64,000 nucleotides of DNA from Afipia sp. (GTDB lineage: Bacteria; Pseudomonadota; Alphaproteobacteria; Rhizobiales; Xanthobacteraceae), in NCBI GenBank assembly GCA_024508675.1, contig JANINQ010000005.1:1-64000 (forward strand), read 5' to 3'. Below are positions 4,682 through 64,000 of this stretch, piece by piece. Position 1 is the stretch's first letter. Every line of letters begins with the position of its first letter. Below the pieces are notes generated by a model. It was not told where the DNA came from and ran no database searches. It saw nothing but the letters and a program-made list of their open reading frames with translations. Position numbers and translations under genes: made by a program.

Positions 4682-5548
4682 ATGGTTCGCAGTGGGTTAA
4701 TCGCATTTGCCGCGCTGTTCTCGGTTACCGCTCCGGCGACGGGCTGGGCTTACGAGATCAAGCCGAAGACTCCCGAAACTGCGTTTTCCGCAAAACTCCA
4801 GCCGGACATCGTCGGCCTGTCCAGCGCCACCGAAGGCAGCAAGGCCGCCGCGATCTTCGAGGCCTACCTGAAGGATCTTCCCGGCGTGAAGCCGGAGACC
4901 GCGCAGCAGAAGTTCGGCGGCACCAACGTGACTTATGTCACCGCGATGAAGTTCACCCTCGCCCCCACCAGCACCCATCCCGGTGAATCGATGCTGGCAG
5001 TGTTCTCCTCCCCCGCGAGCAGCAACCGCGCCTATTACATCTCCCGCCTGCTCGGCTTCTCGACCGATAAGCAGCCGTCGAAGGCCGAGATGATCGAGCG
5101 CGTGACCGCGAAGTACGGCGCGCCGACCGCGATCGGCGACGGCCGCATGTATTATTTCTACAAGGCCGGCAAGTTGATGTCGGTGAAGCAGAAATATACC
5201 CCGGCGAGCGCCCTCGAAGCGCTCAACGCGCCGATCAATCCGAAGGTCGCCGTCGCCCTCAACGATGCCAACGGACGCGGGAGCTGCGTCGCGGAACTGA
5301 AGCGCTCGCAGGCGCTGGAGAAGACTCTCGACAAGCTCGTCGCCGAAGCCAAGGCGGCAAACTGTGACGCACTGGCGTCCGTCGAGATTTTCCCCGGCAT
5401 CACGCCGGACCGCGTAAGCAAGGCAGAATTCACGCTGATCGATTTCAAGCAGATCGTCAGTGCGGCAAAGATCGACGCGGAAGCCTTCGCCGCTGAAAAG
5501 AACGAAGCCCTCAACAAGACGCCGCTCGGCAACGCGCCGAAACTCTAA
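4682..5548 (+). CDS. Secreted protein, 288 aa, unknown function
   Basis: An N-terminal signal peptide is clear: MVRSGLIAFAALFSVTAPAT followed by GWA as a probable cleavage site before YEIKPK (about residue 24). The mature protein of about 265 residues is soluble-looking, with no lipobox and no further membrane segment. Two Cys (in GRGSCVAEL and AANCDALAS) could form a periplasmic disulfide. The C-terminal third is rich in Ala, Lys and Glu and probably helical. A small secreted GCG-GFHR protein follows 18 bp downstream, suggesting co-transcription. I do not recognise the family. Confidence 0.75.
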   Translation: MVRSGLIAFAALFSVTAPATGWAYEIKPKTPETAFSAKLQPDIVGLSSATEGSKAAAIFEAYLKDLPGVKPETAQQKFGGTNVTYVTAMKFTLAPTSTHPGESMLAVFSSPASSNRAYYISRLLGFSTDKQPSKAEMIERVTAKYGAPTAIGDGRMYYFYKAGKLMSVKQKYTPASALEALNAPINPKVAVALNDANGRGSCVAELKRSQALEKTLDKLVAEAKAANCDALASVEIFPGITPDRVSKAEFTLIDFKQIVSAAKIDAEAFAAEKNEALNKTPLGNAPKL

Positions 5549-53772: not shown

Positions 53773-54903
53773 TCACGGCGTCGGGGCCAGCCGCCGTTTT
53801 GCATGCAGTGCGGACATGGCCCGGAGCCAGTCCCGGAGGTCGCGGAGCCGCTCATAGCCATACTGGCGGGCAGCCTCCATGCCAAACACCAGCGAGCGAG
53901 TCGGGCTGACATCCACCACCATGTCGACCATGGTTTTCCGGCCGGTCCATATCTGGGCCATGAAGCTGTCCTGCGCCGAGCACGAATCGATGGCCTGCAC
54001 GTCGGTGGCGGAGAAAAGCTGTTCGGTCATCTTGTCGACCACCAGCACCCCCGGCGAATATCTGGCGAACTCGCCGTCAAAGGCGATTTTCCAGGTGTAG
54101 GCCGTTGGCCCACAATAGAGCAGCACTTGGGCTGCGATGGTCCGCCCGTCGAGACGCAATACCGCCACCGACGCGTTGCCTTCGGCTGCGAGATCCCCAA
54201 TCAGCCGCCGGGTAAATTCGGTGTCGCGGTCGCTGCAGAGGATGGCGGTGCCCTTCTCGCCCTTCCAGCTCCGCTTTTCGAGATTCAGGAATTCCTCGAA
54301 GGCGGTCCGCGTCGCTTCCGCGTTGCGCTCATTGACCACTTCGAGCTTGCCGAGAGCCGACAGCCGGTTCCAGTCCTGCCGCAGCTTCTTGCGGGTGGAG
54401 CCGGACGTCTTGATCCCCTTCTCGCGCGTCACCGCCGGCCTCAACGTCTGGGTGAGCGTCAGGTGCGCAAGATGCTGGTCGGCAATGGTCTTTTGAATCG
54501 CGGCATAGGCTTCGGAATCCGCGTCCATCTCCTTCAGGCTGATCACATTCGGCAGCGCCGGGTTTTTGCGGATCGCAGCGAAGAACGCCGGCATGACCTC
54601 CAGCGCAAAGGCCGGATCGACTACCGGTGTGGACAGGAAAGCGTAGTTGTAAGGCCGCGCCTCGAGCATCGGCGGCCAGAGCGGAATGACGTTGCGGTGC
54701 TGCAGGGCCCACAGCCCGACCAGTCGCGCGGACTCAACGCCTTCTTCCCAGGCCAGCAGCACCGTCACCACCGCGAACATGGTGTCGAGCGCGGCCTTGA
54801 GCGCGGTGGGATTCATGAAGGCATTGCCCGGCGCGCGGCGAATGAGATCATTCCACTGCGCGGTGAGATCCTGCCCCTTCGATGCGACTGTCACTGAAAT
54901 CAT
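53773..54903 (-). CDS. GNAT / CelD (BcsL)-like acyltransferase
   Basis: 376 residues from ATG 54903 (MISVTVASKGQDLTAQWNDL); the frame open to 55035 adds an atypical part. The C-terminal half matches the Acetyltransf_6 domain found in CelD/BcsL and FemAB-like proteins: LEKRSWKGEKGTAI, FTRRLIGDLAAEGNASVAVL, GRTIAAQVLLYCGPTAYTWK and the DGEFARYSPGVLVVDKMTEQ block. The tail (DLRDWLRAMSALHAKRRLAP) is basic. Such enzymes acylate sugars, polysaccharides or peptides in the cytoplasm. It stands next to an FAD-dependent oxidoreductase-like gene in divergent orientation; substrate unknown. Confidence 0.82.
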   Translation of the reverse strand: MISVTVASKGQDLTAQWNDLIRRAPGNAFMNPTALKAALDTMFAVVTVLLAWEEGVESARLVGLWALQHRNVIPLWPPMLEARPYNYAFLSTPVVDPAFALEVMPAFFAAIRKNPALPNVISLKEMDADSEAYAAIQKTIADQHLAHLTLTQTLRPAVTREKGIKTSGSTRKKLRQDWNRLSALGKLEVVNERNAEATRTAFEEFLNLEKRSWKGEKGTAILCSDRDTEFTRRLIGDLAAEGNASVAVLRLDGRTIAAQVLLYCGPTAYTWKIAFDGEFARYSPGVLVVDKMTEQLFSATDVQAIDSCSAQDSFMAQIWTGRKTMVDMVVDVSPTRSLVFGMEAARQYGYERLRDLRDWLRAMSALHAKRRLAPTP

Positions 54904-55164
54904 AGAGGCCGAACCTGCGTCGACGCGTATCCAAACCGCATTCTCGCGGAGCCAAATTGCGGGTGCATGACTGCAATCCAAGAACCAGAAATACGCCCCG
55001 GTTCCATTAATGCTGCGGCGGCCCGCCGCAGGCAAGCCGCAACCATTTAAATCGTTAATACAAGCGTTTTCGCTGCATTAACCTAAGCAAGCATTCACCA
55101 CGTTTCTTTCAAGCTTTAGTCGAGTTTGCAGCCGTAGTGCTAAGTAGCTGAAAAGAGGCGCGAC

Positions 55165-56331
55165 ATGCGGCACACGGACATTGCCATTATCGGCGGCGGA
55201 CTTGCAGGATCGACAGCGGCCGCGATGCTCGGCCGCGCCGGCATCTCCACCATCCTGATCGACCCTCACAAAATCTATCCGCCAGACTTCCGCTGCGAAA
55301 AACTCGGCGGCTATCAGCTCGATCTCCTGCGCAAGACCGGCATCGCCGATCCGGTGCTTGGCGCCACGACGCTCGATGGCAATGCCTGGACGGCGCGGCT
55401 CGGCCGTCTGCTCGACAAGAAGCCGAGCGACCAGCATGGCATCATTTACGGCGATCTGGTGAATACCGTCCGCCGCCAGATTCCGGACAACGTCGAGTTC
55501 ATCGAAGACAAGGTGACAGCGGTTGCGACCAGCGCCGATCGCCAGACGCTGACGCTGTCGAATGGCGAACAGATTTCCGCGCGGCTGATCGTGCTCGCGA
55601 ACGGGCTGAATATCGGCCTGCGTCACAGCCTCGGCATCGAGCGCGAGGTCATCAGCCCGTGCCACTCCATCACCATCGGCTTCAATGTCCAGCCTGTGGG
55701 CCGCGAGAGTTTCGAATTTCCGGCCCTGACCTATTTTACCGAGAACTCCGCGGCGCAGATGTCATATCTGACACTGTTTCCGATCGGCTCCACGATGCGT
55801 GCAAACCTTATGGTCTATCGCGGCATGGACGATCCATGGCTGCGCCGTATGCGCCAGACGCCCGAACAGGCGATCCACGAATTGATGCCGAACCTTCGCG
55901 CCCTCTCCGGCGAGTTCAAGGTCGATGGCTTGATCAAGATCCGTCCCGCCGACCTCTACGTCACCAAGGGACACCGGCAAGCCGGCATCGTCCTTGTCGG
56001 TGACGCGTTCTGCACGTCGTGCCCTGCTGCCGGCACAGGCACCGGCAAGGTGTTCATGGACGTGCAGCGGCTGTGCAACGCCTATATCCCCACATGGCTC
56101 GCAAGCGGCGGTATGGGTGCGGACAAGATTTCGCAGTTCTACGACGATCCGGAAAAGTGCGCGAACGATGCCTCCGCACTACGTCAGGCTTACGACCTGC
56201 GTTCGATCTCCATCAATACCGGACTGTCATGGCACGTCCGGCGCTGGGTCCGCTTCCTGCATCGCGCCGGTGTCGGCGCGTTGCGTCACGCGCGCGAAAC
56301 CCTGTCGGTCCGGCGGACGGCGCAGCCGTAG
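55165..56331 (+). CDS. FAD-dependent oxidoreductase / monooxygenase-like protein
   Basis: 388 residues. The N-terminal dinucleotide motif is IIGGGLAGSTAAAMLGRAGI (8-27), with a second FAD-binding element at VLVGDAFCTSCPAAGTGTGK (about 275-294); the usual GDAAHxxxP His is replaced by Cys. A middle segment, LIVLANGLNIGLRHSLGIER, is of the DG type in PHBH-fold hydroxylases and geranylgeranyl reductase-like proteins. AGAGG precedes the ATG. It is divergent from the acyltransferase and convergent with the ABC exporter gene (3 bp gap). It may hydroxylate or reduce a lipid or polyketide-like substrate. Confidence 0.85.
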   Translation: MRHTDIAIIGGGLAGSTAAAMLGRAGISTILIDPHKIYPPDFRCEKLGGYQLDLLRKTGIADPVLGATTLDGNAWTARLGRLLDKKPSDQHGIIYGDLVNTVRRQIPDNVEFIEDKVTAVATSADRQTLTLSNGEQISARLIVLANGLNIGLRHSLGIEREVISPCHSITIGFNVQPVGRESFEFPALTYFTENSAAQMSYLTLFPIGSTMRANLMVYRGMDDPWLRRMRQTPEQAIHELMPNLRALSGEFKVDGLIKIRPADLYVTKGHRQAGIVLVGDAFCTSCPAAGTGTGKVFMDVQRLCNAYIPTWLASGGMGADKISQFYDDPEKCANDASALRQAYDLRSISINTGLSWHVRRWVRFLHRAGVGALRHARETLSVRRTAQP

Positions 56332-56334
56332 GAA

Positions 56335-58305
56335 TCAATCCTCGTCATCGTCATCATCATCGTCGTCGTCATCCTCTGACGGATCATGCGACTGGTGAAG
56401 CTGGTCGTCCCAGAGCTTGCGGTACATGCCATTGGCCTTGAGCAGTTCGGCATGCGGGCCACGCTCGACGGCCTTGCCGTTGCTCACGACAATGATTTCG
56501 TCCATGTCGATCACCGACGTCAGGCGGTGGGTCGAGAAGATCATGGTGCGGCCCTTGGCGACCTTGAGCAATGTGCGGTTGATCGCTGCTTCCGTGGTCT
56601 GATCGAGCGCCGAGGTCGCTTCATCGAGCAGCAGGACGGACGGATTGCGGACGATGGCGCGCGCAATCGCGATGCGCTGGCGCTGGCCACCGGACAGCGT
56701 GTCGCCGCGCTCGCCCACCACCGTGTCGTATTTCTGTGGCAGGCTCATGATGTAGCGATGGATCTCGGCTTTCTTCGCCGCTTCCTCGACTTCAGCATCG
56801 GTCGCGCCATCCTTGCCGAGCCGGATGTTTTCGCGGATCGACATGTTGAACAGCATGTTTTCCTGGAACACCACTGCCATGCTGGCGCGCAGGGATTCAC
56901 GCGTCACCTTGCGGATATCGACGCCGTCGATGGCCACCTTGCCCTCGTTCGGCTCGTATAGACGCAGAATCAGATTGAGCAGCGTGCTCTTGCCGGAGCC
57001 GCTCGGCCCGACAATCGCGATATTCTTGCCCGCGCCGATTTTGAGCGAGAGGCCGTCAAGCACAGGGGTCTCACTGCCTTCGTATTTAAAGACAACGCGA
57101 TCGAACGCAATGTTATCGGTGATGCGCGGCAGATCCGGTGCACCGGGGCGGTCCGCGCCGCGCGGCGGCTCATCGAGCAGTTCTTCCATATGACGCACGG
57201 CGGCCGCGGCTTGAATCGCCACCGGGATGAAGTGCATCAAGTGGGCAATGTTGTAGGAAATTTCCCAGAACGCACTTTCGAACGTAACGAAGGTGCCGAT
57301 GGAAATCTTGCCGATGGTGGCGAGATAGGCGCCGATCGCCAGCACGATCAGATGCAACAGCAGCACCGACACGGTGACGGTGCGCTCCACCATGGTGGAC
57401 AGGAAGGTCGCGTCCGCCATCGAGCGGCGCGCGGCGTTGTTGCGGAAAGTAAACCAGCCGAACGCCTTGCGCTGCAGGCCGAACGCTTTCACCACCATCT
57501 GTGCGGCGACGTTTTCCTGCACCACGCCGAGGATCGCGGATTCGTTGACCTTCTGCTCGTAGTTCGCCTGCACCGCCTTCGGCGTCAGGATGCGCGGCCC
57601 AATCAGGGTGATCGGAAAAATCAGCAGCGCCACGGCGGCGAGCTGCCAGTTCAGCCAGATCATCAGGCCGATGCCCGCGATTAGTTCGAGGAACGGCAGC
57701 GCCGCGCTGTTGGCAAAATGCTTGACCGAGGATTCATAGCCCGCCATGTCGACGGAAAAACGAGAGAGGATTTCGCCGCGCTTGGTGCGTCCGAAAAACG
57801 CCGCCGGCAGACTCTGGACATGCTGGAACATCCGCGCCCGGACATCGGAAATCACCGATGCCGCCAGCCGCGCATCCCACCGCTCATACCAGACCGCGAC
57901 AATGGACGTGATGATGCCCGCGACCGCCAGCACCGTCAGAATGGTGTAAAGCGCCTGAAAATCCTCTTCGCCGAGCGCGTCGTCGATCAGATATTTCAGG
58001 CTGAGCGGCATGATGACGTTGAACAACGTCTCAATGAAGAGACCGATGGCAACGAAACTCAGCCACGTCTTGTAGTTACGCAGGTGCGGCCAGGTAAACC
58101 GCCACAGGGTCGCGAACGCGCCCGCGGCTTCGCTTGCGGTATAGGCGACAAGATCCTCGTCATCGTCATCATCGTCGTCGATGTCATCGGGATCGGGCGG
58201 CGGCAGAATATCGGCCTGCGCGGCGGCCAGGCGCGCGGCTTCGTCCTCGAGCGGCTTGCCCGGCTCTGTCTTATCGGTATCCGAACCGGGTGGCTTGCTT
58301 GCCAT
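56335..58305 (-). CDS. ABC half-transporter (permease plus ATPase) with poly-Asp ends
   Basis: 656 residues. Cytoplasmic N-terminal 75 residues hold a run PDPDDIDDDDDDDED (about 37-51). Six transmembrane helices follow (FIETLFNVIMPLSLKYLIDD to FVTFESAFWEISYNIAHLMH). The nucleotide-binding domain has IVGPSGSGKST (about 425-435), LSGGQRQRIAIARAIVR (signature) and LLLDEATSALDQ (Walker B). The C-terminus is SE followed by ten Asp and ED. It is a homodimeric exporter of the MsbA/ABCB type for lipids, glycans or hydrophobic metabolites. It lies 76 bp downstream of the oxidase-methyltransferase fusion on the same strand. Confidence 0.92.
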   Translation of the reverse strand: MASKPPGSDTDKTEPGKPLEDEAARLAAAQADILPPPDPDDIDDDDDDDEDLVAYTASEAAGAFATLWRFTWPHLRNYKTWLSFVAIGLFIETLFNVIMPLSLKYLIDDALGEEDFQALYTILTVLAVAGIITSIVAVWYERWDARLAASVISDVRARMFQHVQSLPAAFFGRTKRGEILSRFSVDMAGYESSVKHFANSAALPFLELIAGIGLMIWLNWQLAAVALLIFPITLIGPRILTPKAVQANYEQKVNESAILGVVQENVAAQMVVKAFGLQRKAFGWFTFRNNAARRSMADATFLSTMVERTVTVSVLLLHLIVLAIGAYLATIGKISIGTFVTFESAFWEISYNIAHLMHFIPVAIQAAAAVRHMEELLDEPPRGADRPGAPDLPRITDNIAFDRVVFKYEGSETPVLDGLSLKIGAGKNIAIVGPSGSGKSTLLNLILRLYEPNEGKVAIDGVDIRKVTRESLRASMAVVFQENMLFNMSIRENIRLGKDGATDAEVEEAAKKAEIHRYIMSLPQKYDTVVGERGDTLSGGQRQRIAIARAIVRNPSVLLLDEATSALDQTTEAAINRTLLKVAKGRTMIFSTHRLTSVIDMDEIIVVSNGKAVERGPHAELLKANGMYRKLWDDQLHQSHDPSEDDDDDDDDDDED

Positions 58306-58381
58306 CTAAAACCGTCGCTGCGCGGCCACGCTGCCGCAATCACTCGCCGCAGCGGCCGGATGGCCGATGCCTGTTAAGCGA

Positions 58382-60436
58382 TTAGTCGTCGTCGGCAATC
58401 TTGTCAAAGAACGAATAGCGCAGACTGTCCGCGTCGGCGTACCAGTCGCCCGGCCCCTTGTTGGCCTTGAGCGTCGCGTCCCACACGGCGTCCGTGGTGT
58501 CCCGCCGGTGCATGGACAGATCGAAGCCGTTGCTGAAGAACAGTTCGGACCATTCCCACCAGGTGCCCAGTTTCTTGACACCGCGCAGCAGGTCGTAGCG
58601 GTCGATCAGGCCCGGCATCATGTCGCTGGTGACCGATCCGAACACGAAGCCGGTCTTCACCACACGGTTGAGTTCGCGCACTGCGCGCTTCACCTGCTTT
58701 TCCGGCACATGGCAAAGGCTGGTTTCGAAAACGAAATCGAATTCCTCGGCCTTGAACGGCAGCTTGGTCAGCGAGCCGAACTTGTTGTATTTGCGCAGCG
58801 CCTTCGGCGTCTTGCCATGAATGTAACGGTTGTTCTCGACGCCCCAGGCATCGATGCCACGCTCGCGCAGCGCGCCGACCAGTTCGCCGCTCGCCGAACC
58901 CGCGACCAGCAGCTTGTAGCCCTTGGCCCTGTTCCAGACGATCTTGATGAGGTTCATCAGATAGTCCGGATCGGTGAACTTATTCCACACCTCGCCGTAA
59001 GGACCGGTGTTGCGATAGTTGTCGAAATAGGCGCGATCGATCTTGTCGGACGGCACGTTGCCGCTCTCGCCGCGCTCGTAGCGCAGCTTGATCATCTGCG
59101 TCAGGATGATGTCGGTGGCCGCATCCGACGAGTCCAGGAGACCATTCAACGTCGAGTCGAACAGATAGTCGCCGACAACGACAAGGCCGGGATGGTCGGT
59201 CGGCTCCGGGTGATGATTGGTCATCACGTCGCGCGCGGGCAATCCGCCCGGAATGCAGTTCACCGACGACAGCCAGCGATGGGTCTTGCCCTCAATAAAA
59301 TGCGCACGCGCATCACCGAACGACTTCGGCAGCGATTTGATCGCAGCATCGATCAGCTCGGCATCGCTGAGATTGGCGAAGGCCAGCGCGTCGGAGCCCG
59401 GAATCAGCCAGTTCAGCACGCCGTGGCGGCCGACGTCGTGGCGCGCGCCCTCGACATAAACGCAGCAGCCGCCGAATGCCTCGGACATCCACCACGCGCC
59501 CGGAACCTTGTCGCCCCAGAACGGCTCATCGAACAGAATCGAGACGCGCAGGTAGTGCGCGGGACGATCGAAGTAAGCGATGTGCTTCACCATCGAATGG
59601 CGCAGCAGCTCGCCTTCCCAGTTCATGGTGGTCAGCCACGAATGCGGCAGGCACATCACCACGAGATCGTGCTCCTTGGTGATCGGCCCCTTCCCGTTCA
59701 TCATGTTGATGGCGTAGCGCCCGGAATTCGCCTTGCCGACTTTCAGCACGCGATGGTTCAACTGGATATCGGCGTCGATCTCGCTCTTGAGGCTGTGGAT
59801 CAACTGCTCGTTGCCGTTCTGGATCGAGTAGAGGCCGATATAGCCGTCCACATCCATCACGAAGTTCTTCAGCGCGTTGAGGCCGTTGGTGTTGTGCGGC
59901 TCGGTGGCGATGTCCGAGCGCGCCATCACCTTGAGGAAGCGTTTGGCGACAGGGTCCGCCACTTCGCGGTCCAGCAGTTCCTCGGCGCTGATGTAAGCCC
60001 AGGGATGTTCGTTGTCGTGCGCGCCGACGCCTTCGTAATATTCGGTCGGCGACACCATCCTGGTACAGAGCTTGCGGAAGTCCTGGATGGCCTTGGCGGT
60101 CTGCGGGCCGTACTTGCGGCGCATGCCGGGGACATCATTCAGAAGTTCGCCGTCGAGCTGCACCTGCTCGGCGTCCATCGGGATGGTCTGCAGGCCGAAA
60201 TGCTGGATCAGCTCCCGCAGCGGGTCCGGGCCGGTCATCGAGTAATCGTAGATCTCGGCGACACCCGCCTCGTACATGGCAGGGGCTGTGTCGAAGGTCT
60301 TGGTCAGGATCTTGCCGCCAAGCCGGTCGGACGCCTCATAGATCGTGATGCGGCAGAGCGCCCCAAGCTTCTTCTTGAGGTACCACGCACTCATAAGCCC
60401 GCCTGGGCCGCCGCCGACTATCGCCAGATCGAGCAT
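58382..60436 (-). CDS. Flavin amine oxidase-type domain fused to SAM-dependent methyltransferase
   Basis: 684 residues. N-terminal part: FAD motif LAIVGGGPGGLMSAWYLKKK (about 4-23), EASDRLGGKILTK (about 34-46) and, near the C-terminal end of the oxidase, PGLVVVGDYLFDSTLNGLLD (about 424-443), as in protoporphyrinogen oxidase/phytoene desaturase/amine oxidase flavoproteins. C-terminal part from about residue 507: methyltransferase motif I LLVAGSASGELVGALRERGI (about 509-528) with acidic GVENN, then PFKAEEFDFVFETSLCHVPE. It probably acts in two steps on one substrate. The ABC exporter gene follows; the start codon is ATG 60436. No family name for the fusion is known to me. Confidence 0.85.
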   Translation of the reverse strand: MLDLAIVGGGPGGLMSAWYLKKKLGALCRITIYEASDRLGGKILTKTFDTAPAMYEAGVAEIYDYSMTGPDPLRELIQHFGLQTIPMDAEQVQLDGELLNDVPGMRRKYGPQTAKAIQDFRKLCTRMVSPTEYYEGVGAHDNEHPWAYISAEELLDREVADPVAKRFLKVMARSDIATEPHNTNGLNALKNFVMDVDGYIGLYSIQNGNEQLIHSLKSEIDADIQLNHRVLKVGKANSGRYAINMMNGKGPITKEHDLVVMCLPHSWLTTMNWEGELLRHSMVKHIAYFDRPAHYLRVSILFDEPFWGDKVPGAWWMSEAFGGCCVYVEGARHDVGRHGVLNWLIPGSDALAFANLSDAELIDAAIKSLPKSFGDARAHFIEGKTHRWLSSVNCIPGGLPARDVMTNHHPEPTDHPGLVVVGDYLFDSTLNGLLDSSDAATDIILTQMIKLRYERGESGNVPSDKIDRAYFDNYRNTGPYGEVWNKFTDPDYLMNLIKIVWNRAKGYKLLVAGSASGELVGALRERGIDAWGVENNRYIHGKTPKALRKYNKFGSLTKLPFKAEEFDFVFETSLCHVPEKQVKRAVRELNRVVKTGFVFGSVTSDMMPGLIDRYDLLRGVKKLGTWWEWSELFFSNGFDLSMHRRDTTDAVWDATLKANKGPGDWYADADSLRYSFFDKIADDD

Positions 60437-60679
60437 GTTGTCCTTCGCCCCTCGCCGGCGTTTTTCTCGAATACCGCCAGTCTAACTCACCCTAAACAAA
60501 TGCGTTTTTCATCTGAAGGGAAGATGAACAAACCGCGACCCGGAGTGAAAAAGACCGAAACAGCCGAAAGAAGGTGCAATTTGCCGCGATTCCCCGACCA
60601 GTTGGACCGGATCGCCGCCCCTGGGATCGGGGACGCTGCGAAAAGAGGAGTTCCGCCCAGCGAAACACACCAAAAGAAA

Positions 60680-60700
60680 TGGGCCGGCAGAGCCGGCCCA
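60680..60700 (-). terminator. Strong GC hairpin with T run on the minus strand
   Basis: TGGGCCGGC (60680-60688) pairs with GCCGGCCCA (60692-60700) around AGA. On the minus strand it is followed by TTTCTTTTGG. It lies 250 bp beyond the LuxR-type gene stop and 244 bp before the fusion gene start, so it would end a transcript coming from the LuxR gene or from a promoter in between. Confidence 0.75.
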
Positions 60701-60877
60701 TGGAGAAGGATGTTCCTGATTATCCTGAGCCACGGACACCAAAATCATCACCGCGAGGCGATCATGTCCTATGGCTGAAAAACTATCGTCCCGTTTGTAT
60801 GCCCTGCCCCGAAATCACTGGACTTCTTGGTTGGTCACAGAATGGCCACAGACTAGAAATCCGGCAGACTGATACAT

Positions 60878-60893
60878 CCCCCAAATGGGGGAA
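60878..60893. promoter_or_regulatory. Perfect 16-bp palindrome, possible regulator site
   Basis: TCCCCC (60878-60883), AAAT, GGGGGA (60888-60893): a perfect inverted repeat with a 4-base centre. It lies 58 bp downstream of the LuxR-type gene and could be an operator for it or the start of an independent small transcript ending at the hairpin at 60680-60700. No factor can be assigned. Confidence 0.35.
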
Positions 60894-60950
60894 ACGCCTT
60901 CGGCTGACTGGTGATCGATTGCGATTGCCCGTGAGCGTGTCCCAAATGCA

Positions 60951-62075
60951 CTACTTGATGACAAGCCGCGCCATCATCGCCGCCAGTTCGCTCTGACGCG
61001 ACACGCCCACCTTGGAAAACACCCGCTTCAGAACCGAGCGCGCGGTTTCTTCGGCAATGCCGAGCCGCTCCGCAGCGTCCTTCGGAGACAACCCGGAGCC
61101 GACCAGCGCCGCAATCCGGGCCTCGCCGAGGGTGACGCCGAGAACATCGCGGATCAGCGCAGGGTCCGGTACGCCATCGGCGGTCGGGTTCATCACAAGA
61201 ACAATGGCGCGGGCGCGAGTCAGAAAACCGTTTCCGGAGTTCTGTGCGGGAATTGGCAGGACATAAAGGGCCAGCGGCCGGTTCGCATTCTGGCGATGAA
61301 CCAGAATTGGCCTGGTTTCCTGCGCGACCAAAGCGCGATTGCCATCCAGCGCATTCCGGATCGCCGTCACCGCCTCTTCGCTCGCCACGGGATTGGCCAG
61401 CACGAGCCGGTCATTCACGACATTCAAACCATCGCCGAGCAAGGCCTGCGACGCCGCATTGGACGACACCACACGGCCCAGCGAATCCAGCGCAAAGACG
61501 CCGATCCCGATCCGGGCCATCGCGGCGCCCATACCGGAATTCATCGCCGTCGCATCCATCAGGTGAATGCTCAGGCGGAGCGAGGATTCAACATGAGGAG
61601 CAAGCTGCTCCAGCAACTTCAACTCGTCTTCCGAGTATTCCGCGCGGCCGATCGCACGCTGCACACTCAAGGCCACCTCGATATGCGGGTCGGGAGACAC
61701 CGTCGCCGCAGCAAAATATCTCAGGCCGTGCCGACGCAGCAGATCGCTGTAGAACGGATCGGTTTCGATTTCCTCGGGCGACAGGAGATCGCGGTCGGTA
61801 ATGACGTCGCGTTTGAAAAAATAGCCGCGTTCGCGCGCGCGGATCGCGCGGATATCGCGGTCGCTCCAGCTCAGCGCGTATTCCGCGCTCACCGCCTTGA
61901 GCGATGGAGATTCAATGACACCGAAGCTGCCGTCGTCCCGGCCGTAAATCAAAATCGACCCGACATCATCAAAGCACCTCGTGATGATCTCGAGGGTGGA
62001 CGGCCATCGTGACGGTTCGGCCGCGGCAGCATAAATGGCTTCAATCGCCGCGATCAGGCGGTCATGGTCGTGCAC
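60951..62075 (-). CDS. LuxR-type transcriptional regulator
   Basis: 374 residues from ATG 62075. The C-terminal 65 residues form a LuxR helix-turn-helix: LGVTLGEARIAALVGSGLSP (about 309-328), KDAAERLGIAEETARSVLKR and VFSKVGVSRQSELAAMMARL, the last matching the usual KLGVSSRTQLA-type end. The N-terminal 300 residues resemble a sensor with PAS-like features (GIGVFALDSLGRVVSSNAAS, about 187-206), not an AHL-binding domain. Such lone regulators of this type are common in Bradyrhizobium-group genomes. It is read toward the oxidase-methyltransferase gene and may control it. Confidence 0.9.
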   Translation of the reverse strand: MHDHDRLIAAIEAIYAAAAEPSRWPSTLEIITRCFDDVGSILIYGRDDGSFGVIESPSLKAVSAEYALSWSDRDIRAIRARERGYFFKRDVITDRDLLSPEEIETDPFYSDLLRRHGLRYFAAATVSPDPHIEVALSVQRAIGRAEYSEDELKLLEQLAPHVESSLRLSIHLMDATAMNSGMGAAMARIGIGVFALDSLGRVVSSNAASQALLGDGLNVVNDRLVLANPVASEEAVTAIRNALDGNRALVAQETRPILVHRQNANRPLALYVLPIPAQNSGNGFLTRARAIVLVMNPTADGVPDPALIRDVLGVTLGEARIAALVGSGLSPKDAAERLGIAEETARSVLKRVFSKVGVSRQSELAAMMARLVIK

Positions 62076-62111
62076 AACAGGCCCCGTGCTTAATTAAGGC
62101 GTCAAACCAAG

Positions 62112-62136
62112 AACTTGAAAAATACGGCGGTGTTCC
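62112..62136 (-). promoter_or_regulatory. Weak EcfG-like promoter candidate upstream of the LuxR-type gene
   Basis: On the minus strand GGAAC (62136-62132), 16 bases, AGTT (62115-62112); consensus is GGAAC-N16/17-CGTT, so there is one mismatch. It is about 37 bp before the ATG at 62075. Confidence 0.3.
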
Positions 62137-62209
62137 CGCCTTCCATTTGCGAAAGATCAAATCTGAAAACACGCCAGGACAATAAAAAGTCCCGCAGACA
62201 CTAACAAAA

Positions 62210-62233
62210 AGGCCGCCCCGAAGGGCGGCCTTT
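62210..62233 (-). terminator. Terminator of the rpoB-rpoC operon
   Basis: AAGGCCGCCC (62210-62219) pairs with GGGCGGCCTT (62224-62233) around CGAA, a perfect 10-bp stem. On the minus strand it is followed by TTTTTGTTAG. It lies 33 bp after the rpoC stop codon and shows that rpoC and rpsL are separate transcription units here. Confidence 0.93.
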
Positions 62234-62265
62234 TATTCATGGCAGACACGCCAATCGGCGCGAAA

Positions 62266-64000
62266 TCACTCCGCCGGCGGCAGAGCCAGCGGTTCGGCTT
62301 CCGGAGCAGCCGGCGTGATTGCCGCCTGCTTCTCGCGCTCGTCGAGGATCAGCTTGTCGCGCTTGGTTGCGACTTCGCGAATCTTCGCCATCGAGGCACC
62401 GGTGCCGGCCGGGATCAGGCGGCCGACAATGACGTTTTCCTTGAGGCCTTCGAGCGGGTCCACCTTGCCGTTGACGGCAGCTTCGGTGAGCACGCGCGTG
62501 GTCTCCTGGAACGACGCAGCCGAGAAGAACGAGCGGGTCTGCAGCGAGGCCTTGGTGATGCCGAGCAGCACGGGGTTTCCGGTCGCAGGCTTCTTGCCCT
62601 CGTCCTTCGCCTTGGCATTGAGCGCGTCGAACTCGATCTTGTCGACCTGCTCGCCCGAGATCATGTCGGTCTCGCCCTGGTCGGTGACCTCGATCTTCTG
62701 CAGCATCTGACGGACAATCACTTCGATGTGCTTGTCGTTGATGAGCACGCCTTGCAACCGGTAAACTTCCTGGATTTCGTTGACCAGATAGGCAGCGAGT
62801 TCCTCGATGCCCTTGATCGCCAGAATGTCATGCGGCGCCGGGTTGCCTTCAACGATGAAGTCACCCTTTTCGACGATGTCACCATCCTGCAGATGGATGT
62901 GCTTGCCCTTCGGAATGAGGTACTCGCGAGTCTCCTCGTTCTTGTCGACAGGCTCGATCGAGATGCGACGCTTGTTCTTGTAGTCGCGGCCGAAGCGAAT
63001 GGTGCCGGCGATCTCGGCGATGATCGCCGCATCCTTCGGCTTGCGCGCTTCGAACAATTCGGCGACACGCGGCAGACCGCCGGTGATGTCGCGCGTCTTC
63101 GCGCTTTCGGTGGAGACACGGGCGAGAATGTCGCCGGGCTTCACCTTGCTGTCGAGGTCAACCGACAGAATGCCGTCGACCGACAGCATGTAACGCGCAT
63201 CGCCGCCGCGCGCCAGCTTCAGCACCTTGCCGTCCTTACCCTTGATCACGATCGCGGGCCGCAGATCGGCGCCGCCACGCGTCGAACGCCAGTCGATGAC
63301 CACGCGCTTGGCGATACCGGTCGATTCGTCCAGCGTTTCCGAGATCGACTGACCTTCGACCAGATCCTCGAATCCGATGGTGCCCTCGACTTCGGTGAGG
63401 ATGGGACGGGTATACGGGTCCCACTCCGCGATGCGCTGGCCGCGCTTGACGGCATCGCCCTCGTCGACGTGCATGCGCGCGCCGTACTGAATGCGATGGG
63501 TCGCGCGTTCGGTGCCGTCGGCATCGACCACCGCGACCACCATGTTACGAACCATCGCAACCAGATGGCCTTCGCTGTTGCGCGCGATCGCCTTGTTCTT
63601 GATCGTGATCTTGCCGTCGAAGTTCGACTCGATCACCGACTGCTCGTTGAGCTGCGCCGCGCCGCCGATGTGGAACGTGCGCATCGTCAGCTGCGTACCC
63701 GGCTCACCGATCGACTGCGCCGCGATGACGCCCACCGCTTCGCCGTGATTGACCGGTGTACCGCGCGCGAGATCGCGGCCGTAGCACTTGCCGCAGATGC
63801 CGTTGACCAGTTCGCAGGTCAGCGCCGAGCGGATCTTCACCTCCTGGATGCCGGCCTGCGAGATCTGCTCGACGTGGCTTTCTTCCATCAGGGTGTTGCG
63901 CTTGATCAGCACCTTGTTGGTCGCCGGATCGCGGATGTCCTCGCACGCGGTGCGGCCGAGGATGCGCGAGCCGAGCGACGCCACCACCGTGCCGGAATCA
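62266..64000 (-). CDS. rpoC: RNA polymerase beta' subunit (N-terminal part beyond window edge)
   Basis: The last 578 codons of rpoC; the rest lies to the right of the window (full proteins have about 1400 residues). Visible features are [20 protein letters not shown], the second zinc site with [20 protein letters not shown] (about 55-74 of this part), [20 protein letters not shown] (downstream of the trigger loop), and the C-terminal [20 protein letters not shown]-like [20 protein letters not shown]. Read minus, so it is transcribed towards the LuxR-type gene. Confidence 0.98.

Follow-up and report, generated by a model that had tools for sequence, protein, structure and literature searches.

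The window analysed here, a 64,000-nucleotide stretch of Afipia sp. DNA, carries on its minus strand a gene (58382..60436; hereafter FUS) that joins a flavoprotein of the amine-oxidase fold to a SAM methyltransferase in one chain of 684 residues. The two halves are fused, their cofactor motifs are intact, both are under purifying selection, and the gene has fixed partner genes. Our preferred, tentative reading is that FUS may be a bifunctional tailoring enzyme, in which FAD-dependent oxidation is followed by SAM-dependent methylation at the membrane, the product being exported in this lineage. That FUS has both activities, applies them to a single substrate in this sequence, acts at the membrane and has its product exported is our inference, as follows: the N-terminal half would bind FAD and oxidise (dehydrogenate, desaturate or cleave) a probably amphipathic substrate, and the C-terminal half would then use SAM to methylate the oxidised product, with FUS acting on the cytoplasmic side of the membrane alongside a partner to which it is genetically linked. 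For Nitrobacteraceae and two further families this partner would be an exporter of the MsbA/ABCB type, which would carry the finished compound outwards; in a second clade it would be a protein of about 280 amino acids with a C-terminal hydrophobic stretch. FUS is real and conserved, and it is unstudied as far as the literature was searched: a full-text search gave no paper on the family among the matches listed, most subscription papers being outside its coverage.

The gene was called from its open reading frame, Pfam matches and full-length relatives. A longer frame of 803 amino acids overlaps it on the plus strand (58367-60778), which we attribute to high GC and regard as an antisense artefact; the minus-strand frame (read from 60436 to 58382) is the gene because of its Pfam matches, its full-length conservation in other genera and its low dN/dS. 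An earlier note on this DNA had described an oxidase followed by a methyltransferase in a single chain, and a Pfam search of the 684 residues agrees, with Amino_oxidase (PF01593) at residues 12-432 (E 3.3e-27; 96.3 bits against a gathering cut-off of 19.8) and Methyltransf_11 at residues 512-596 (E 8.7e-8; 33.2 bits against 21.2). Both domains also exceed the Pfam cut-offs in four divergent relatives (Amino_oxidase 89.6-107.1 bits). The oxidase half, residues 1-442 (59111..60436, minus strand), delimited by the Pfam match and conserved columns, contains a GGGPGG dinucleotide-binding loop, E34, an RxGG motif and a C-terminal GDYLFDSTLNG motif. A variable linker follows (about residues 443-489; 58970..59110, minus strand), marked by raised dN/dS over residues 441-500, and then the methyltransferase half, residues 490-684 (58385..58969, minus strand), which has the motif I glycines of class I SAM methyltransferases (G513-S-A-S-G517), the acidic residue ending strand 2 (E534) and D567. 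The motifs cited earlier were all recovered, GGGPGGLMSAWYL from residue 8, GDYLFDSTLNGLLD from residue 422 and LLVAGSASGELV from residue 509, and the acidic residue that had been assigned to the methyltransferase is E534, in GVENN.

Conservation was read from an alignment of 128 rows, or 127 sequences, the window gene being present twice. G13, R38, E56, E61, R297, G422, D423, N431, G513, G517, E534 and R591 are invariant, and for G8, G10, E34, G40 and G41 the sole exception is L038, a broken copy. The methyltransferase is not degenerate, because its SAM-binding residues (G513, G517, E534) are identical in 128/128 rows, and the possibility of its decay in all relatives, which the note had named as a refutation, is ruled out. 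A second alignment (VIA-align) has rows covering residues 466-667 only and therefore carries no information on the oxidase half. Purifying selection acts on both halves: against the window gene, dN/dS is 0.03-0.14 in the oxidase half and 0.01-0.24 in the methyltransferase half (12 comparisons each, out of 13, L104 having been dropped for its length difference), while the linker (residues 441-500) reaches 0.57 and exceeds both halves in the more distant comparisons. Broken copies occur elsewhere, with an early break in G018 and two pieces on one contig in G1327. There are five further partial matches, in G1282, G1309, G1315, G1321 and G1345, that of G1309 being a second copy beside a full one. 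G421, a single-contig genome of the window's family, has FUS split into two frames that overlap by four bases near residue 349 (L106/L110), which may reflect an error, gene decay or a genuine split.

Directly downstream of FUS lies an ABC exporter gene (56335..58305, minus strand), its ATG 76 bp away, whose product has Pfam ABC_membrane and ABC_tran in one chain, as expected of the MsbA/ABCB type. A scan of genome contigs confirmed 267 stretches, and the 80 loci kept for neighbourhood analysis came from Afipia, Bradyrhizobium and Tardiphaga or from metagenome bins with less specific names. The exporter noted earlier downstream of FUS is a conserved companion: it lies within 1 kb downstream in 79 of the 80 loci, and at the 80th the contig ends. 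Wherever both rpoC and rpsL are contained in the locus (70 loci), the order is rpoC-FUS-ABC-rpsL on a single strand. The likeness of this exporter to MsbA/ABCB exporters is a near end-to-end match to MsbA-type NCBIfam models, and P-glycoprotein-like chains match as well; it stays under the curated cut-off of each among the best 25 of 191 NCBIfam models, with 387.1 bits against a cut-off of 602 for the lipid-A MsbA model. It differs from such exporters by acidic runs at both ends, found near the N-terminus (at least 7 D/E in 10) in 79/79 orthologous loci and at the C-terminus in 75/75 loci with a complete end. PADLOC, whose library shows no cut-offs, gives a mads_3 match of 112 bits, probably to the generic ATPase part.

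Adjacency to a membrane protein is not proof of shared function. The two halves might do unrelated jobs and the exporter be independent of them, in which case only co-expression or history would account for the fusion and the gene order, an explanation we find rather unlikely. The single chromosomal site in Nitrobacteraceae would by itself preserve neighbours, and the exporter is of a generic ABCB/MsbA type; against this, the FUS-ABC pair persists in another family, with about 40% identity and away from the rpoC-rpsL site, and above strict thresholds (with both halves together in the query) we found no unfused relative except a partial oxidase match in G111. The amine oxidase of that genome stands alone, with an amidase gene upstream, and the five frames scanned there include no methyltransferase. 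In a third family 12/12 genomes have FUS, and the exporter follows it in all three loci examined there (L111, L162, L163), FUS being about 40% and the exporter 43-44% identical, with neither rpoC nor rpsL in the stretch read; these exporters have the acidic runs at both ends too. G1113, from yet another family, has a FUS that is 62% identical and the exporter at the same chromosomal site, the exporter's C-terminus having only 5 D/E in 10.

The proposed coupling of oxidation and methylation at the membrane would involve a different partner in the second clade. Its fusions, 38-42% identical to FUS, come from seven loci in five families (G352, G153, G1115, G845 and three of the six g614 genomes with a match, g614 belonging to the window's own family). 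In 7/7 of these loci a conserved protein of about 280 amino acids replaces the exporter directly downstream on the same strand (L114:11057-11908, L115:11312-12154, L160:11002-11838 and L161:7669-8562, with matches in L168, L169 and L170). A hydrophobic stretch is seen by eye at the C-terminal end of four aligned copies. Searches with four copies in Pfam and as a PDB profile, three in NCBIfam and two in PADLOC gave no match apart from one in Pfam at E 0.044, below cut-off; it might conceivably be RMND1/DUF155-like, and the literature offered nothing useful on this among the matches listed. A search of the window's own genome did not find the protein. Among 249 genomes of the order it occurs in one, G845, which has two consecutive copies and carries FUS, and because G845 supplied a row of the model this search shows only that the protein is rare. 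In a midpoint-rooted tree, for which the program warned that long branches meet, four of the seven second-clade loci form one side with support 100/100 (the tree lacks the g614 loci). In G880 and G1095 the contig stops too soon after the fusion to reveal a downstream partner; these two fusions group with the rows of the third family (100/100 for all five, 96/86 for the pair).

FUS is widespread in one clade, with distant copies scattered elsewhere. In a sample of relatives from the genus, a match of full or nearly full length is present in 26 of 29 genomes (counting the window's own), that of G018 being broken, and the three genomes that have none are 83-84% complete. In the wide GTDB family there is a match in 96/248 genomes but only 13/47 genera (E 1e-50), so most genera lack FUS; genus g596 has genomes both with and without it. 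Samples of the order, class and phylum gave matches in 34/397 (E 1e-25), 5/385 (E 1e-10; including the partial oxidase match of G111 and the split gene of G421) and 11/398 genomes (E 1e-25), the last all from the window's own family. Full-length fusions occur in nine families, namely the window's own and those of G055, G352, G153, G845, G880, G1095, G1113 and G1115. A plasmid origin was also considered, and four plasmid records gave only partial matches of 22-25% identity, the one looked at having no annotation there.

The oxidase half belongs by sequence to the same Amino_oxidase family as the flavin-containing amine oxidases (putrescine oxidase 2yg3, MAO-A, L-amino acid oxidases). Because, of the proteins with solved structures, putrescine oxidase matches best by sequence (profile search, E 8.6e-13; aligned over FUS residues 3-375), an amine substrate has to be considered. 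In line with the reasoning of the note, FUS would then pair an amine oxidase with an N-methyltransferase, its substrate being a polyamine or an amino compound. We consider this unlikely, notwithstanding the Pfam match. In MAO-type amine oxidases an active-site lysine near flavin N5 is catalytic; the lysine of putrescine oxidase aligns with Arg297 of FUS (codon 59546..59548, minus strand), which is arginine in 128/128 rows, so that "amine oxidase", the activity implied by the earlier naming, is to be taken as a fold label. The positions of the MAO aromatic cage were placed by eye against its motif: position 399 is Y/F in 4/128 rows, and position 429, put opposite a cage tyrosine, is threonine in 128/128, which may also speak against an amine substrate. 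FUS thus differs from classical flavin amine oxidases in having Arg297 for the lysine and in its fused methyltransferase.

Other family matches of the oxidase half are weaker. Prenylcys_lyase (PF07156) passes its Pfam cut-off in one of the four divergent relatives, L111 (29.9 against 27 bits, residues 202-282, covering 84/363 profile positions only), and is not among the matches of the window's FUS at E 0.01. Protoporphyrinogen oxidase models of NCBIfam match FUS weakly and far below their cut-offs, as do all NCBIfam equivalog matches of FUS, L111 and L160 (for L160, among the best 25 of 30); at E 0.01 or better there are 12 matches for FUS and 14 for L111. A role in anti-phage defence was also considered; in PADLOC, again with no cut-offs shown, FUS scores 24.9 bits with a "C-3,4 desaturase" model and 13 bits with mads_2. 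Protoporphyrinogen oxidases, prenylcysteine oxidases and carotenoid-type desaturases thus give partial matches, mostly in their FAD-binding parts, and we know of no fused methyltransferase in any of them. The prenylcysteine lyase, protoporphyrinogen oxidase and desaturase matches may point, weakly, away from simple amines. Our guess would be a lipid- or isoprenoid-like substrate rather than a simple amine, because of the missing lysine, the weak family matches and the types of partner. Structure prediction adds little: AlphaFold2 gave a mean pLDDT of 45.1 for the whole chain (38 rows) and 47.7 for the oxidase half alone (53 rows), and only the methyltransferase core (about residues 490-600; pLDDT 63-88 by block) is usable. 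The oxidase models are too poor to say whether the two active sites face each other, as the note had hoped to learn, and the Foldseek result that ranks prenylcysteine oxidase first (E 4e-8, TM 0.13/0.18) is given little weight because the underlying model is so poor.

The earlier statement that no characterised protein has this architecture was too sweeping. MnmC is a characterised chain that contains an FAD oxidase and a SAM methyltransferase domain acting sequentially on one tRNA substrate (mnm5U34), with an FAD domain homologous to glycine oxidase (PMC3648344). It resembles FUS in coupling the same two cofactors within a single protein. What stands of the claim lies in the differences: the FAD part of MnmC is C-terminal (TIGR03197 "MnmC_Cterm") and the domain order is therefore reversed, its substrate is tRNA, and its FAD domain is related to glycine oxidase, whereas the oxidase of FUS belongs to another family. 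To our knowledge MnmC has no exporter partner. The architecture of FUS is unusual yet has precedent. That FUS should itself be an analogue of MnmC, modifying the wobble uridine of tRNA by FAD-dependent oxidation and SAM methylation, is very improbable: MnmC likewise combines FAD and SAM chemistry in one polypeptide (PMC3648344) and FUS lies among translation genes, but no MnmC model is found among the NCBIfam matches of FUS (12), L111 (14) or L160 (best 25 of 30), the domain order is reversed, the distribution is patchy, and it would be difficult to account for a partner that is an exporter.

A broader form of the preferred reading, a membrane-coupled tailoring enzyme, is doubtful: FUS might found an enzyme family, as yet uncharacterised, in which oxidation and methylation are coupled to the membrane through interchangeable partners, an acidic-tailed exporter or a tail-anchored protein, with a secreted, probably lipid-like product basic to the biology of Nitrobacteraceae. 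The pair is kept between rpoC and rpsL, usually in one copy, across symbiotic soil bacteria and related genera (Bradyrhizobium, Afipia, Tardiphaga), and this conservation would imply that the group shares a product not yet described. The fusion offers two coupled activities and a candidate exporter, and a knockout combined with metabolomics could therefore reveal the compound. In Bradyrhizobium, bll5409 and bll5410 encode the RNA polymerase beta and beta-prime subunits (PMC8225791) and bll5402-5404 encode elongation factors Tu and G and ribosomal protein S7 (PMC6320959); judging by this numbering, the pair probably corresponds to the genes numbered about 5406-5408 in USDA110. The five group-specific essential genes of the Tn-seq paper (PMC8225791) do not include the pair, which says little because those genes also had to be essential in Rhodopseudomonas palustris.

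The other genes adjoining FUS point to no named pathway. A LuxR-type regulator with a GTG start lies upstream (60951..62075, minus strand; Pfam and locus comparison) and is not a fixed part of the unit, because a similar gene is present in only 23/70 loci, and at 60% identity or more in 6/70. A FAD_binding_3 (UbiH-like) oxidoreductase (55165..56331, plus strand) is an optional neighbour, with a similar gene in 55/70 loci. A GNAT-type Acetyltransf_6 gene (53773..54897, minus strand; start codon unsure, the frame being open to 55035) has a similar gene in 20/70 loci and probably lies outside the FUS unit. Its product scores 136 bits with the NCBIfam BspF acyltransferase model, whose cut-off is 775, and is probably only a distant relative of that enzyme. 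A scan of 55050-62300 gave no sigma-70-like site, with 1.9 expected; terminator-like sites numbered 14, against an expectation of 6.3. Five hairpins resembling terminators, of which two overlap, lie on the minus strand in the 514-bp gap (60437-60950) upstream of FUS.
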